From positions 1,294,001 through 1,358,000 of the forward strand of contig NZ_CP027668.1 of NCBI RefSeq assembly GCF_003008515.1: 64,000 bases of DNA, read 5' to 3'. A model generated the notes under the pieces. It was not told the origin of the DNA. It did no database searches and saw nothing but the letters and a program-made list of their open reading frames with translations. This document shows positions 25,753 through 31,971 of this stretch, one piece after another (within the stretch, counting starts at the first letter, position 1; every line of letters begins with the position of its first letter). The DNA comes from Phreatobacter cathodiphilus. GTDB taxonomy: Bacteria > Pseudomonadota > Alphaproteobacteria > Rhizobiales > Phreatobacteraceae. The translations under genes and the position numbers were made by a program.

Positions 25753-27021
25753 ATGTCAGAAGCCACCGGAACACGACCCTTCTCCGCTTTCGAATGGATG
25801 CTCTCGCTGCGCTACCTCCGGGCGCGCCGCAAGGAGGGCTTCATCTCGGTCATCGCCGGGTTCTCCTTCATCGGCATCATGCTGGGGGTGGCCACGCTCA
25901 TCATCGTCATGGCGGTGATGAACGGCTTCCGGAAGGAGCTGCTCGGCAAGATTCTCGGCGTCCAGGGCCACATGGTGCTCCAGCCCATCGACACGCCTCT
26001 GACGGACTATGCCGAGGTGGCCCAGAGGCTGATGCGCATCCAGGGCGTCCGCCTCGCGGCCCCGGTCATCGAGGGCCAGGCGCTGGCCTCCTCCGCCTTC
26101 AATGCCGGCGGCGCCATCGTGCGCGGCATGCGCGCCGAGGACCTGCGCCGCCTTCCGCTGATCTCCACCAACATCAAGCAGGGCGGGCTCGAGGATTTCG
26201 ACACCAGCGAGGGCGTGATGGTGGGCCAGCGCCTCGCCAACCAGCTCTCGCTCCGCCTCGGCGACAGCCTCACCCTCGTCTCGCCGAAGGGTTCGTCCAC
26301 GCCCATGGGCATGACGCCGCGGATCAAGGCCTATCCGATCGTGGCGATCTTCGAGGTGGGCATGACGGAATATGATTCCGCCTTCGTCTTCATGCCCTTC
26401 ACCGAGGCACAGGCCTATTTCAACCGCGAGGGCGATGCCTCCTCCATCGAGGTCTACACCGATAACGCCGACCGCATCGAAGAGTACCGGCGACGGGTCT
26501 CGGAGGGGGTCGAGCGGCCGGTCTTCATCGTCGACTGGCGACAGCGCAACGCCACCTTCTTCTCGGCCCTGCAGGTCGAGCGCAACGTCATGTTCATGAT
26601 CCTGACGCTGATCGTCTTCGTCGCGGCGCTGAACATCATCTCCGGCCTCATCATGCTGGTGAAGGACAAGGGGCGCGACATCGCGATCCTCAGGACCATG
26701 GGCGCGACGCGCGGCGCGGTGATGCGCATCTTCCTCATCACCGGCGCCTCCATCGGCGTGGTCGGCACCATCGCCGGCTTCATCCTCGGCGTCGTCGTCT
26801 GCCTGAACATCGAGAAGATCCAGGAATTCGTCTCCTGGGCGACGGGCACCACGCTCTGGGATCCGACGGTGCGCTTCCTCACCCAGATCCCCGCCGACAT
26901 GTCGACGGGCGAGACGCTGACCGTGCTGGTCATGGCGCTGGTCCTCTCCCTGCTCGCCACCCTCTACCCGTCCTGGCGGGCGGCCAAGCTCGATCCGGTC
27001 GAGGCGCTGCGCTATGAGTGA
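25753..27021 (+). CDS. lolC: Lipoprotein-releasing ABC transporter permease LolC/LolE
   Basis: The 422-residue inner-membrane protein has one N-terminal helix ([20 protein letters not shown]), a large periplasmic domain (about 70-275) and three C-terminal FtsX-type helices. It releases outer-membrane lipoproteins from the inner membrane to LolA. Alphaproteobacteria generally have one LolC/E-type permease that forms a homodimer, as seen here. It overlaps lolD by eight bases, confirming a joint operon. Its clients would include BamE and the Wza-like lipoprotein in this window. Confidence 0.95.
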
Positions 27022-27742
27022 TGTCGTGACCGCCGAAGCCGCCGTGGCCGCCCCCGCCGGCGAGGAAGCCCCCGTCCTGTGGATGGAGAAAGTCGAGCGC
27101 CGCTATGCGGAAGCCGGCGCGCCGCTGGAAATCCTCAAAGGCGCCGACTTCGCCATCTGGCCCGGCGAGACCGTGGCGCTGATCGCGCCCTCCGGCACCG
27201 GCAAATCCACGCTCCTGCATCTCGCCGGCCTGCTCGAAGCCCCCGATGGCGGCGAGGTCTATATCAGCGGGCAGGCGACCTCGAAGCTCGCCGACAAGGA
27301 GCGCACCCGCATCCGCCGGCTGGAGATCGGCTTCGTCTACCAGTTCCACCACCTCCTGCCCGAGTTCTCGGCCCTGGAGAACGTCATCCTGCCGCAGATG
27401 ATCCGGGGGCTGACCTACAAGGAAGCCAAGGACCGCGCGAGCGAGCTCCTGACCTATCTCGGCCTCGGCGAGCGCCAGACGCACCGGCCGGCCGAAATGT
27501 CCGGCGGCGAGCAGCAGCGCGTCGCCATCGCACGCGCCGTCGCCAACGCCCCGCGGCTCCTTCTGGCGGACGAACCCACGGGCAATCTCGACCCGAAGAC
27601 CGCCGACCACGTCTTCTCCGCGCTCGGGCAACTGGTGCGCGCCTCGCGGCTGGCGGCCGTCGTCGCCACCCACAACATGGACCTCGCCGGCCGCATGGAC
27701 CGGCGGGTGACCATCCGCGACGGGCTCATCGTCGAGCTCTAG
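27014..27742 (+). CDS. lolD: Lipoprotein-releasing ABC transporter ATP-binding protein LolD
   Basis: The 242-residue ATPase has Walker [13 protein letters not shown] (near residue 60), the LolD-type loop [18 protein letters not shown], the signature [14 protein letters not shown] and Walker [14 protein letters not shown]. It powers lipoprotein extraction by LolC. The start overlaps the lolC end. Immediately after its stop lie a CtrA-like site and two LexA boxes that control the next transcript. Confidence 0.96.
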
Positions 27743-27768: not shown

Positions 27769-27783
27769 GTTCCGAGTTTGTTC
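27769..27783 (+). promoter_or_regulatory. LexA (SOS) box 1
   Basis: The site is a perfect GTTC-N7-GTTC direct repeat (27769-27772 and 27780-27783), the operator recognised by alphaproteobacterial LexA. Its second half forms part of a possible -35 (TTGTTC, 27778-27783) for the downstream microprotein. Confidence 0.82.
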
Positions 27784-27799
27784 TCGTGGATTGCGAGTG

Positions 27800-27814
27800 G
27801 AACAAAAAAGGAAC
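27800..27814 (+). promoter_or_regulatory. LexA (SOS) box 2
   Basis: GAAC-N7-GAAC (27800-27803 and 27811-27814) is the same operator on the other strand. It is centred 31 bases, about three helical turns, from box 1. It would overlap the -10 region and transcription start, so LexA bound here should block the promoter. Confidence 0.82.
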
Positions 27815-27850
27815 ATGATGTCCTGGCTTTCGGAAACGCGGGAGGACATC

Positions 27851-27946
27851 ATGATCCGCAGCTTCATCGAAGACGCAGCCGCCCTTGTCGCCCTCGGGCT
27901 CTTCACCGGCATGATCACCGTCTGGGCGCAGGCGCTTCAGGGGTAG
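27851..27946 (+). CDS. SOS-controlled single-pass membrane microprotein (SidA-like by context)
   Basis: The 31-residue protein MIRSFIEDAAALVALGLFTG followed by MITVWAQALQG has a short amphipathic start and one hydrophobic helix (residues 9-27). GGGAGG sits six bases before the ATG. An in-frame upstream ATG at 27815 would give 43 residues but lies at the predicted transcription start. Two perfect LexA boxes lie directly upstream. Caulobacter's SidA is a 29-residue LexA-controlled inner-membrane protein that blocks division through FtsW. Size, topology and control match here, but sequence homology has not been tested. The gene overlaps the convergent Imm50-like gene by ten bases and precedes dnaE. 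Confidence 0.72.
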   Translation: MIRSFIEDAAALVALGLFTGMITVWAQALQG

Positions 27947-28407
27947 GTCAGGCGAGGCAGGCGCCCCTCTACGACGGGCTCCGCCGCCACGACCTCGATA
28001 CCGAGACAGCGGAGCTGGGCCGCGAGGCCGACGCCGCGTTCGAACGAGACGATGTGGTGGGGCGGCAGCGCCTCGCCACTGGAAAAATGGCCGCGCGCTT
28101 CCGTCGAGATTGTGAGATCGACAATCTGATTGATGCCGTCGAAGCCGTCCAGCCGGAATGAATCGACATCGTGGAAGCGCAGCGTCGCAAGCACATCGGG
28201 TCCGCGCCAGTCGATCTGGGTCGCCCGCAGCACGAGGATGCTGGCGGTGGCGACCGGCAAGCAGTTGCTCTCGCTCCAGTCGCCCGGCGCGATTTGCCCG
28301 CGCCAGAGATGGAGGTCGATCACTTCCGCATCGTGAAACGATGGCCACCGGCCGAAATGGCTGGTCAATCGGTGATGATGAAGGATGGAGGCGATATCGA
28401 AGGACAT
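27937..28407 (-). CDS. Imm50-like immunity-family protein
   Basis: The 156-residue protein shows FGRWPSFHDAEVIDLHLWRG near residue 18 and ATLRFHDVDSFRLDGFDGIN near residue 85. The HDAEV and LRF...GF patterns are those of Imm50, a family named for guarding against contact-dependent or secreted toxins. No toxin gene is adjacent, so it may be an orphan or have another role. It stands alone on the minus strand between the SOS microprotein and dnaE. The start is chosen at MSFDIAS and the ribosome site is weak. Confidence 0.62.
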   Translation of the reverse strand: MSFDIASILHHHRLTSHFGRWPSFHDAEVIDLHLWRGQIAPGDWSESNCLPVATASILVLRATQIDWRGPDVLATLRFHDVDSFRLDGFDGINQIVDLTISTEARGHFSSGEALPPHHIVSFERGVGLAAQLRCLGIEVVAAEPVVEGRLPRLTYP

Positions 28408-28536: not shown

Positions 28537-31500
28537 TTGGCCGACCAGCATTTCGTCCACCTGCGGGTCCATTCCTCCTTCTCGCTGCTCGAGGGGGCGC
28601 TCTCCATCGGCAAGCTCGCCAAGCTCGCCGGCCACGACCGGATGCCGGCGGTGGCCGTCACCGACACCAACAATTTGTTCGCCGCGCTCGAATTCTCCGA
28701 GAAGATGAAGGGCGAGGGCATCCAGCCCATCGTCGGCCTCACCCTCGGTCTCGACTGCGGCGACAGGACCGTCGATCCCAAGCGGCCCAATCTCCAGGCG
28801 GCCAAGCCCCGCATCGCCCTGCTGGCGGCGAGCGAGGAGGGCTACCGCAACCTCATGGCGCTATCCTCGCGCGCCTTCATGGAGAGCGCCGACGTCGGCG
28901 ATGCCAGTGTCCCGCTCGCCGTGCTCGCCGCCCATGGCGACGGTCTGATCGCGCTGACCGGTGGCCCCGGCGGCCCGGTCGACCAGGCCTTCCGCGACAG
29001 CCAGGCGGACCTTGCCCGCGGCCGCCTCGACCGGCTGGAGGCGATCTTCGGCGACAGGCTCTATGTGGAGCTTCAGCGCCATGGCCTCGAGGAGGAGAAG
29101 GCGGTGGAGCCGGACCTCATTCAGGAGGCCTACCGGCGCGGCCTGCCGCTGGTCGCCACCAACCAGTGCTATTTCGCTTCCCTCGGCGACTATGAGAGCC
29201 ACGACGCGCTGATCGCCATCGCCGAGGGGCGGGTGCTCGGCGATTCCGAGCGGCGGCAGTTGACGCCCGAACACCGGTTCAAGACGCAAGCCGAGATGGT
29301 GGCGCTCTTCGCCGACCTGCCGGAGGCGGTGGCCTCCACGGTGGAGATCGCCCGCCGCTGCCACTTCCGCCCGAAGACCCGCAAGCCGATCCTGCCGAGC
29401 TTCACCGAGGAGGCCGGCGGCGTCGCCCTCGACGAGGCGGCAGCCCTCGCCCGCCAGGCCCGCGAGGGCCTCGACCGGCGTCTCGCGGTGCACGGGCCGG
29501 CGCCGGGCCTCACCGAGCAGGACTATCGCGACCGCCTCGACTTCGAGCTCTCGATCATCGAGCGCATGAAGTTCCCCGGCTACTTCCTCATCGTCTCGGA
29601 CTTCATCAAATGGGCCAAGGCCCAGGACATTCCCGTCGGTCCCGGCCGCGGCTCGGGCGCCGGCTCGCTCGTCGCCTATGCGCTCACCATCACCGACCTC
29701 GACCCGCTGCGCTTCGCGCTGCTCTTCGAGCGCTTCCTCAATCCCGAGCGCGTCTCGATGCCGGACTTCGACATCGACTTCTGCCAGGACCGGCGCGACG
29801 AGGTGATCCGCTACGTGCAGGAGCGCTACGGCCGCGCCCAGGTGGCACAGATCATCACCTTCGGCACCCTGCAGGCGCGCGGCGTGCTGCGCGACGTCGG
29901 CCGCGTCCTCGAATTGCCCTACGGCCAGGTCGACAAGCTCTGCAAGCTCGTGCCGCAGAACCCCGCGGCCCCGGTGACGCTGGACAAGGCCATCGAGGGC
30001 GAGCCCAAGCTCCAGGCCGCCCGCGACGAGGACCCCGTCGTCGCCCGCCTCTTCGGCATCGCCACGAAGCTCGAAGGTCTCAACCGCCACGCCTCCACCC
30101 ACGCCGCCGGCCTCGTCATCGGCGACCGGCCGCTGGTCGAGCTGGTGCCGCTCTACCGAGACCCGAAGACCGACATGCCGGTCACCCAGTTCAACATGAA
30201 GTGGGTCGAGCAGGCGGGCCTCGTGAAGTTCGACTTCCTCGGCCTGAAGACGCTGACCGTCCTCCAGAAGGTTGTGGACCTGATCGCCCGGCGCGGCATC
30301 GCCATCGATCTCGCCACCATCCCGCTGGACGATGCGAAGACCTACGACATGCTGGCGCGCGGCGAGACGGTCGGCGTGTTCCAGGTGGAAAGCGCGGGCA
30401 TGCGCAAGGCCCTCGTCGAGATGAAGGCGAGCCGGTTCGAGGACATCATCGCCCTCGTCGCCCTCTACCGTCCGGGCCCGATGGCCAACATCCCGGTCTA
30501 TTGCGCCCGCAAGCACGGCCTCGAAAAGGCCGAATATCCCCATCCGCTGCTGGAACAGGTGCTCTCCGAGACCCACGGCATCATCGTCTACCAGGAACAG
30601 GTGATGCAGGCGGCGCAGATTCTGTCGGGCTATTCGCTCGGCGAGGCCGACCTCTTGCGCCGCGCCATGGGCAAGAAGATCAAGGCTGAGATGGACAAGC
30701 AGCGTGAGCGCTTCGTCTCCGGCTGCGTCGAGCGGTCGATCCCCAAGGCCAAGGCGGATGAGATTTTCGACCTTCTCGCCAAGTTCGCCGATTACGGCTT
30801 CAACAAGAGCCACGCCGCCGCCTACGCCCTCGTATCCTACCATACGGCCTATCTGAAGGCGAATTACCCCGTCGAGTTCATGGCGGCCTCCATGACTCTC
30901 GACCTCTCCAATACCGACAAGCTCTCCGAATTCCGCCGCGAGGCAGTGCGCCTCGGCATCCCCGTCGATCCCCCCAGCATCAACCGCTCCGGCGTCCATT
31001 TCGACGTCTCCGAGGGGCGCATTCTCTACGCCTTGGCGGCGGTGAAGGGTGTCGGCCAGCAGGCGGTGGAGGCCATCGTCGCGGCCCGCGACGGCGAACC
31101 CTTCCGCGACCTCGGCGACTTCGCCCAGCGCATCAACCCGCGCATGCTCAACCGCAAGACGCTGGAGAACCTCGCCTCCGCCGGCGCCTTCGACGACCTG
31201 GAACCGAACCGGGCCGCCGCCTTCGCCGCCATCGATCAGGTCCTCGCCGAAGCCCAGCGCCAGGCCGAGGGCAGGGCGCTCGGCCAGAACGAGCTCTTCG
31301 GCGGCTCGGGCGCGCCGCTCATCCGCGTGCCCAAGGTCGAACCCTGGCTGCCGGCCGAGAAGCTCGACGAGGAATACAAAGCTATCGGCTTCTTCCTGTC
31401 GGGCCACCCGCTGGACGACTATCAGGCGGCGCTGAAGCGCCTGCGCATCGAGCCCTTCGCCGATTTCTCCCGCAGCGTCCGCCAGGGCGCCAGCGCCGGG

Positions 31501-31971
31501 CGGCTGGCGGGCGTCGTCACCTCGCGCCAGGAGCGCCGCACCAAGACCGGCAACAAGATGGGCATCGTCACCTTCTCGGACCCCTCGGGCCACTACGAGG
31601 GCGTGCTCTTCTCCGAGGGGTTGGCGCTCTACCGCGATCTGCTGGAGCCCGGCAAGGCGGTGCTGCTCGCGGTAGGCGCCGAGCTGCAGGGCGACGACGT
31701 GCGCGTGCGCATCCAGTCCGTCGAGCCGCTCGATGCGGCGGCCGTGCGCGTCCAAAAGGGCTTCCGCGTCTTCGTGGAAGACCTCGGCGCCATCGATTCC
31801 ATCGCCCGCCGTCTGCCTTCCAAGGGCGACGGCGAGGTCAGCCTCGTCATCCGCCTCACCGATGCCGCGAGCGAGGTGGAGGTCAAGCTGCCGGGCCGTT
31901 TCGCCGTCTCGCCGCAGATCGCGGGGGCCATCAAGGCCGTGCCCGGCGTTCAGGCCGTCATGGAAATGTAG
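28537..31971 (+). CDS. dnaE: DNA polymerase III alpha subunit
   Basis: The 1144-residue replicative polymerase has an N-terminal PHP domain (VHLRVHSSFSLLEGALSIGK, then VTDTNNLF). The palm GPGRGSGAGSLVAY leads to catalytic aspartates in MPDFDIDFCQDRRDEVIRY (about D410, D412). Fingers with YGFNKSHAAAYALVSY, a helix-hairpin-helix region and an OB fold (about residues 990-1060) follow. It is the DnaE1 type, longer than the mutagenic DnaE2 and without an imuAB context. The TTG start has GGGA upstream. The SOS microprotein lies upstream on the same strand, so part of dnaE expression may be LexA-linked. Confidence 0.96.
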   Translation: MADQHFVHLRVHSSFSLLEGALSIGKLAKLAGHDRMPAVAVTDTNNLFAALEFSEKMKGEGIQPIVGLTLGLDCGDRTVDPKRPNLQAAKPRIALLAASEEGYRNLMALSSRAFMESADVGDASVPLAVLAAHGDGLIALTGGPGGPVDQAFRDSQADLARGRLDRLEAIFGDRLYVELQRHGLEEEKAVEPDLIQEAYRRGLPLVATNQCYFASLGDYESHDALIAIAEGRVLGDSERRQLTPEHRFKTQAEMVALFADLPEAVASTVEIARRCHFRPKTRKPILPSFTEEAGGVALDEAAALARQAREGLDRRLAVHGPAPGLTEQDYRDRLDFELSIIERMKFPGYFLIVSDFIKWAKAQDIPVGPGRGSGAGSLVAYALTITDLDPLRFALLFERFLNPERVSMPDFDIDFCQDRRDEVIRYVQERYGRAQVAQIITFGTLQARGVLRDVGRVLELPYGQVDKLCKLVPQNPAAPVTLDKAIEGEPKLQAARDEDPVVARLFGIATKLEGLNRHASTHAAGLVIGDRPLVELVPLYRDPKTDMPVTQFNMKWVEQAGLVKFDFLGLKTLTVLQKVVDLIARRGIAIDLATIPLDDAKTYDMLARGETVGVFQVESAGMRKALVEMKASRFEDIIALVALYRPGPMANIPVYCARKHGLEKAEYPHPLLEQVLSETHGIIVYQEQVMQAAQILSGYSLGEADLLRRAMGKKIKAEMDKQRERFVSGCVERSIPKAKADEIFDLLAKFADYGFNKSHAAAYALVSYHTAYLKANYPVEFMAASMTLDLSNTDKLSEFRREAVRLGIPVDPPSINRSGVHFDVSEGRILYALAAVKGVGQQAVEAIVAARDGEPFRDLGDFAQRINPRMLNRKTLENLASAGAFDDLEPNRAAAFAAIDQVLAEAQRQAEGRALGQNELFGGSGAPLIRVPKVEPWLPAEKLDEEYKAIGFFLSGHPLDDYQAALKRLRIEPFADFSRSVRQGASAGRLAGVVTSRQERRTKTGNKMGIVTFSDPSGHYEGVLFSEGLALYRDLLEPGKAVLLAVGAELQGDDVRVRIQSVEPLDAAAVRVQKGFRVFVEDLGAIDSIARRLPSKGDGEVSLVIRLTDAASEVEVKLPGRFAVSPQIAGAIKAVPGVQAVMEM

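Follow-up and report, generated by a model that had tools for sequence, protein, structure and literature searches.

A microprotein gene behind twin LexA boxes near dnaE in Phreatobacter cathodiphilus is very probably a diverged ortholog of the division inhibitor gene sidA

Introduction

In Caulobacter, the main SOS-induced inhibitor of cell division is SidA, a 29-residue inner-membrane protein which is controlled by LexA and acts via FtsW (PMC4211646). Deletion of lexA in Caulobacter results in filamentation due to sidA (PMC12700426). In C. crescentus, sidA is CCNA_02004 (PMC10769358) and dnaE is CC1926 (PMC1839093). Caulobacter also has DidA, and comparable inhibitors have been described in other bacteria, including YneA in Bacillus, SosA in Staphylococcus and ChiZ in Mycobacterium (PMC4211646, PMC13396833). 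In work on YneA, the helix of such inhibitors was argued to dock on FtsW, and SidA was predicted to do likewise with low confidence (PMC13396833). A 2014 paper groups sidA with inhibitors from various species which are unrelated to one another (PMC4211646). The literature searched, in which subscription papers were thinly covered, contained no description of SidA beyond the relatives of Caulobacter, which is weak evidence.

Here, we analysed a stretch of 64,000 nucleotides (64 kb) from P. cathodiphilus, hereafter the window, in which an earlier note, made from the sequence alone, had proposed a SidA-like gene of 31 codons. To our knowledge, how division is arrested on DNA damage in most Alphaproteobacteria, such as methylobacteria, bradyrhizobia and many others, is unsettled outside Caulobacter. 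The microprotein described below is comparable to DidA, a small inhibitor of division with a single helix which DNA damage induces (PMC4211646), but DidA has 71 residues, is LexA-independent (DriD), targets FtsN and is encoded at another locus. YneA, SosA and ChiZ likewise have one helix and inhibit a late stage of division after induction by damage (PMC13396833); in contrast, they are larger, have extracytoplasmic parts (LysM in YneA and ChiZ) and are unrelated in sequence.

Results

Twin LexA boxes and a small gene between lolD and dnaE

Upstream in the locus lies a window ORF for a lolD-type ABC transporter ATPase (27014..27742, + strand), a conserved neighbour; a lolD query matched this position in relatives as well as in Caulobacteraceae. 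This ORF is followed by two exact matches to GTTC-N7-GTTC, a distal box GTTCCGAGTTTGTTC on the + strand (27769..27783) and a proximal box GTTCCTTTTTTGTTC on the − strand (27800..27814; GAACAAAAAAGGAAC when read on the + strand). The gap between the two boxes is 16 bp, and both fall within 46 bp. They have opposite orientations and starts 31 bp apart, just as the earlier note had described for two perfect boxes. Its further claim that they flank a promoter was not borne out, as searches between the boxes and in the region found no sigma-70 consensus promoter. Just 5' of the microprotein ORF (27851..27946, + strand, ATG start and TAG stop) is a GGAGG-type stretch resembling a ribosome-binding site when read from the sequence (gcgggaggac, 27838..27847, + strand), and ggagg-type stretches are also found in relatives. 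Downstream are a 156-aa Imm50-type gene on the − strand (~27937..28407; Pfam PF15594, E = 9e-8, above the cut-off) and the conserved neighbour dnaE, which encodes the replicative polymerase alpha subunit (28537..31971, + strand, TTG start, PF07733 match).

In the same genome, the motif also occurs 5' of lexA, where it again forms an inverted twin box, and 5' of recA, a divergent uvrA/ssb pair, imuA near a second dnaE, an Lhr-type helicase gene and parC, these genes being identified from sequence. The whole genome contains 106 matches to the motif, compared with 23 to the reversed pattern. Judged by its association with SOS genes, GTTC-N7-GTTC is the LexA box of this organism. The two boxes described here are the only exact matches in the window. 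Because shuffled sequences predict 1.46 matches per 64-kb window, two boxes within 46 bp are not a product of chance. The proximal box starts 48–52 nt 5' of the start codon in 11 of the 12 genus genomes and occupies a similar place across the order, whereas the distal position holds an exact box in seven of the 12 and an imperfect one or none in the other five. It is the proximal box that is conserved, and an exact distal box is a trait of part of the genus.

Other LexA-type boxes were seen at further loci. At L253 (G000:C1:4098400-4100400), two divergent genes, one matching a CBASS oligonucleotide cyclase and the other a patatin-type phospholipase effector, have a LexA-like box GTTCGCTTTATGTTC between them, and this CBASS-type defence system may be under SOS control. 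Near G000:C1 2984206-2984243 (L243) and 3599919-3599952 (L244) there are two more inverted twins of LexA-type boxes, behind which no long or membrane ORF is obvious; these may mark small SOS genes or RNAs. At two nearby loci, near G000:C1 3317803 (L252) and 3324004 (L254), a LexA-type box precedes ORFs sharing MGGKVDHPFKV, which are candidate paralogous SOS-linked proteins.

The microprotein gene is under purifying selection

The ORF at 27851-27946 encodes a product of 31 aa, MIRSFIEDAAALVALGLFTGMITVWAQALQG, for which AlphaFold2 yielded one helix covering residues 2-30 (pLDDT 96); a hydrophobic 17-mer is present in its relatives as well. The gene was found in all 12 genus genomes with identities of 77-100%. 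Across these genomes, 26 of the 31 third codon positions are variable, compared with 11 first and only three second positions. Mean pS was 0.51 and mean pN 0.10, and the other two frames showed the reverse pattern. Between the gene of the window and that of L031, there are 12 synonymous changes and no amino-acid change. These data strongly indicate that the microprotein is under selection at the amino-acid level, and since pN is far below pS, the ORF is a real gene. The single modelled helix and the coding selection thus confirm the one-helix microprotein of 31 residues of the earlier note. A functionless chance ORF behind chance boxes, in whose favour one could point out that, at the expectation given above, one GTTC-N7-GTTC in 64 kb is nothing unusual, is refuted by the two boxes in 46 bp, the order-wide conservation and the low pN, and its probability is negligible.

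Gene order and profile comparison point to SidA

NF033228, the NCBIfam model of SidA, gave matches above its cut-off solely in Caulobacteraceae and in a single genome of the 14 named controls, evidently that of Caulobacter vibrioides. The Caulobacteraceae SidA genes found with this model encode 29-31 residues (e.g. MVQFTRETLALASVASFVWMMVEVARMFA). At 24 of their loci dnaE comes right after, and at 20 of these 24 an exact LexA box comes right before. The suggestion in the earlier note that sidA lies beside dnaE was therefore right, the Caulobacteraceae genes being directly upstream of it. Often lolD is further upstream, giving the order lolD, LexA box, sidA, dnaE, and the position between lolD and dnaE is seen at L106, L107, L215, L219 and other Caulobacteraceae loci. 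The gene of the window, lying between lolD and dnaE, matches this slot. In one Caulobacteraceae genome (G786), a second SidA-like ORF of 37 aa, MTRLIRETLAFAAAATFVWAV..., is located away from dnaE and has no box (L232).

Further comparison was made with a Hyphomicrobiales family profile built without SidA sequences. Aligned with SidA by hhalign, this profile scored 23.3 in a gap-free, co-linear alignment over 27 columns (20.3 with a smaller sequence set), compared with 8.2 ± 2.4 (maximum 18.0) for 300 column-shuffled profiles and 8.9 for the reversed profile. With the family HMM, most SidA sequences outscored all or nearly all of their own 500 shuffles. When the peptide of the window alone was scored against the SidA profile, 121 of 500 shuffles scored as high. 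None of 23 family members came near the NF033228 cut-off (35 bits), the best match being E = 0.067 for one member; several SidA genes of the Caulobacteraceae genus g204 also missed this cut-off. Scans of the 23 members against Pfam and NCBIfam found no family above cut-off. A class-wide search with NF033228 gave many weak matches, which fell within long frames or at a distance from dnaE and were dismissed as chance.

Taken together, family profile, locus and promoter make it very probable that the 31-aa gene is an ortholog of SidA which has diverged, falls under the NCBI SidA cut-off and is so far unrecognised. Position and the profile-profile test now support the likeness to SidA which had been proposed from size, topology and control. 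Like the Caulobacter SidA of NF033228, the predicted ortholog has about 29-31 residues and one helix, with a basic N-terminus followed by an acidic residue, a LexA box just upstream, the slot between lolD and dnaE and a co-linear profile alignment. On the other hand, the Hyphomicrobiales proteins carry the motif LF......W, with a conserved LF and a C-terminal W, in place of the SidA motif FVWM, and the locus of the window has inverted twin boxes and an Imm50-type gene before dnaE. Size, a single helix and LexA control are also shared with SOS-induced membrane-damaging peptides of the TisB/DinQ type (DinQ: PMC3567139), which would lower the proton motive force and lead to dormancy. Such a role is very improbable, as no match to those families was found in Pfam or NCBIfam, inheritance is vertical at a single locus by dnaE rather than patchy and toxin-like, and both sequence and locus fit SidA.

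The small gene is widespread in Hyphomicrobiales

Searching 398 genomes of the order with the profile identified further members, nearly all of which adjoin dnaE and have a box upstream. For the class as a whole, the peptide profile by itself lacked sensitivity, but anchoring on dnaE worked. The dnaE-anchored set comprised 80 further genomes, for the most part a single one from each family, from which 72 regions were scored, and 80 named genomes, mainly of Methylobacterium, Microvirga, Chelatococcus, Ancylobacter and Xanthobacteraceae, with Methylorubrum, Rhodoplanes and others. An exact box was found within 600 bp upstream of dnaE in 37 of the 72 regions and upstream of dnaE in 62 of the 80 named genomes, compared with about one by shuffling and one or none with the reversed motif. 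A hydrophobic ORF of 24-44 aa with a ribosome site, starting 5-110 nt past the box, was present in 31 of the 37 regions and in 61 of the 62 named genomes with a box; at random positions this was the case in 0.3%. In L175 and L178, the box is followed by a 47-residue version of the peptide.

In total, at least 26 of the 51 Hyphomicrobiales families sampled have a one-helix protein of about 30 residues encoded between a LexA box and dnaE. The small ORFs and boxes upstream of dnaE which the earlier note suggested looking for in this order thus exist, and the gene is conserved both in the 12 genus genomes and across the order. About half of the sampled families have neither box nor peptide at the dnaE locus; in L140 and L179 the peptide is absent and lolD directly adjoins dnaE. 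In L141 and L151 (families f31 and f10), a LexA box stands right before dnaE with no peptide between, an arrangement which suggests direct SOS control of dnaE in these families. In family f11 (L137), the box is followed by a small gene of another kind (MTTIHFVRTADGWG...), with a family-like helix ORF further on, before dnaE.

An Imm50-type insertion separates the peptide from dnaE in two genomes

In Caulobacteraceae and most relatives, dnaE starts shortly after the peptide (about 130 bp in most genus relatives), which would allow the two genes to share a transcript. The Imm50-type insertion is confined, among the 12 genus genomes, to that of the window and L038, with 71% identity between the two. 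The statement that dnaE follows the microprotein gene accordingly holds insofar as dnaE is downstream, but the two do not directly adjoin. With an opposite-strand gene in between, coupling of peptide and dnaE is doubtful in the genome of the window, and the suggestion that DNA damage links checkpoint and replication through dnaE is unsupported there. The persistence of the peptide in both genomes despite the insertion indicates that it matters in its own right and not merely as a leader of dnaE.

In Sinorhizobium meliloti, Ribo-seq detected a translated small ORF, sORF25, in the 5'-UTR of dnaE1, and the authors suggested uORFs (PMC10117765). By its place at dnaE1, sORF25 is probably the same gene; it was regarded there as a possible uORF. 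A leader or uORF tuning dnaE expression, with LexA truly controlling dnaE and the peptide itself having no job, would be in line with this proposal, with the ORF lying upstream of dnaE almost everywhere and with L141 and L151, which keep the box before dnaE without the peptide. We regard it as unlikely, however, because the peptide is under selection over its full length at the amino-acid level, its hydrophobic helix is kept across families, the gene has been retained in the two genomes where an opposite-strand gene separates it from dnaE, and the homologous sidA acts in trans.

Discussion

We propose that the small gene of the window is a sidA ortholog gated by LexA, whose product would be a membrane helix that holds the late divisome, and we consider this model as a whole likely. 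Given the identity of the motif and the shared regulon, LexA bound to both boxes would keep the 31-codon gene silent. Upon DNA damage, RecA would become active and LexA would cleave itself, allowing the peptide to be made. Based on hydropathy and the helix model, the peptide would enter the inner membrane as one helix with its N-terminus probably inside. There it would bind the late divisome at the level of FtsW, FtsI or FtsN and hold septal wall synthesis until LexA recovers. A FtsW/RodA-type gene is present in the genome of the window, and the division block and FtsW as its target are predicted by homology, from SidA biology.

A SidA homolog could also block division through another partner, either FtsN as for DidA or FtsI, or through another envelope enzyme. 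On part of the helix the motif is unlike that of SidA, and DidA illustrates that a change of target is possible (PMC4211646). Nevertheless, FtsW seems to be a common target of unrelated SOS inhibitors, which has been shown for YneA and predicted for SidA, ChiZ and SosA (PMC13396833), and we consider a different partner possible but rather doubtful. The leader-peptide, toxin and chance readings discussed above rank low.

With regard to evolution, it is on balance probable that SidA is not a speciality of Caulobacter but an ancient SOS checkpoint of Alphaproteobacteria with a fixed place beside dnaE, and that division arrest and supply of the replicative polymerase may, in many lineages, be joined on one transcript under LexA control. 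Under this interpretation, SidA has been overlooked by annotation because it has only about 30 codons and evolves fast. Family models for proteins of 30 residues can overlook orthologs, which locus and promoter expose. Moreover, a likely function can be offered for a translated small ORF of S. meliloti which had been taken as a possible uORF. The SidA-type checkpoint probably occurs far more widely than has been recognised, and a conserved, predicted and unrecognised gene whose mechanism is known in one relative makes alphaproteobacterial division arrest directly testable.
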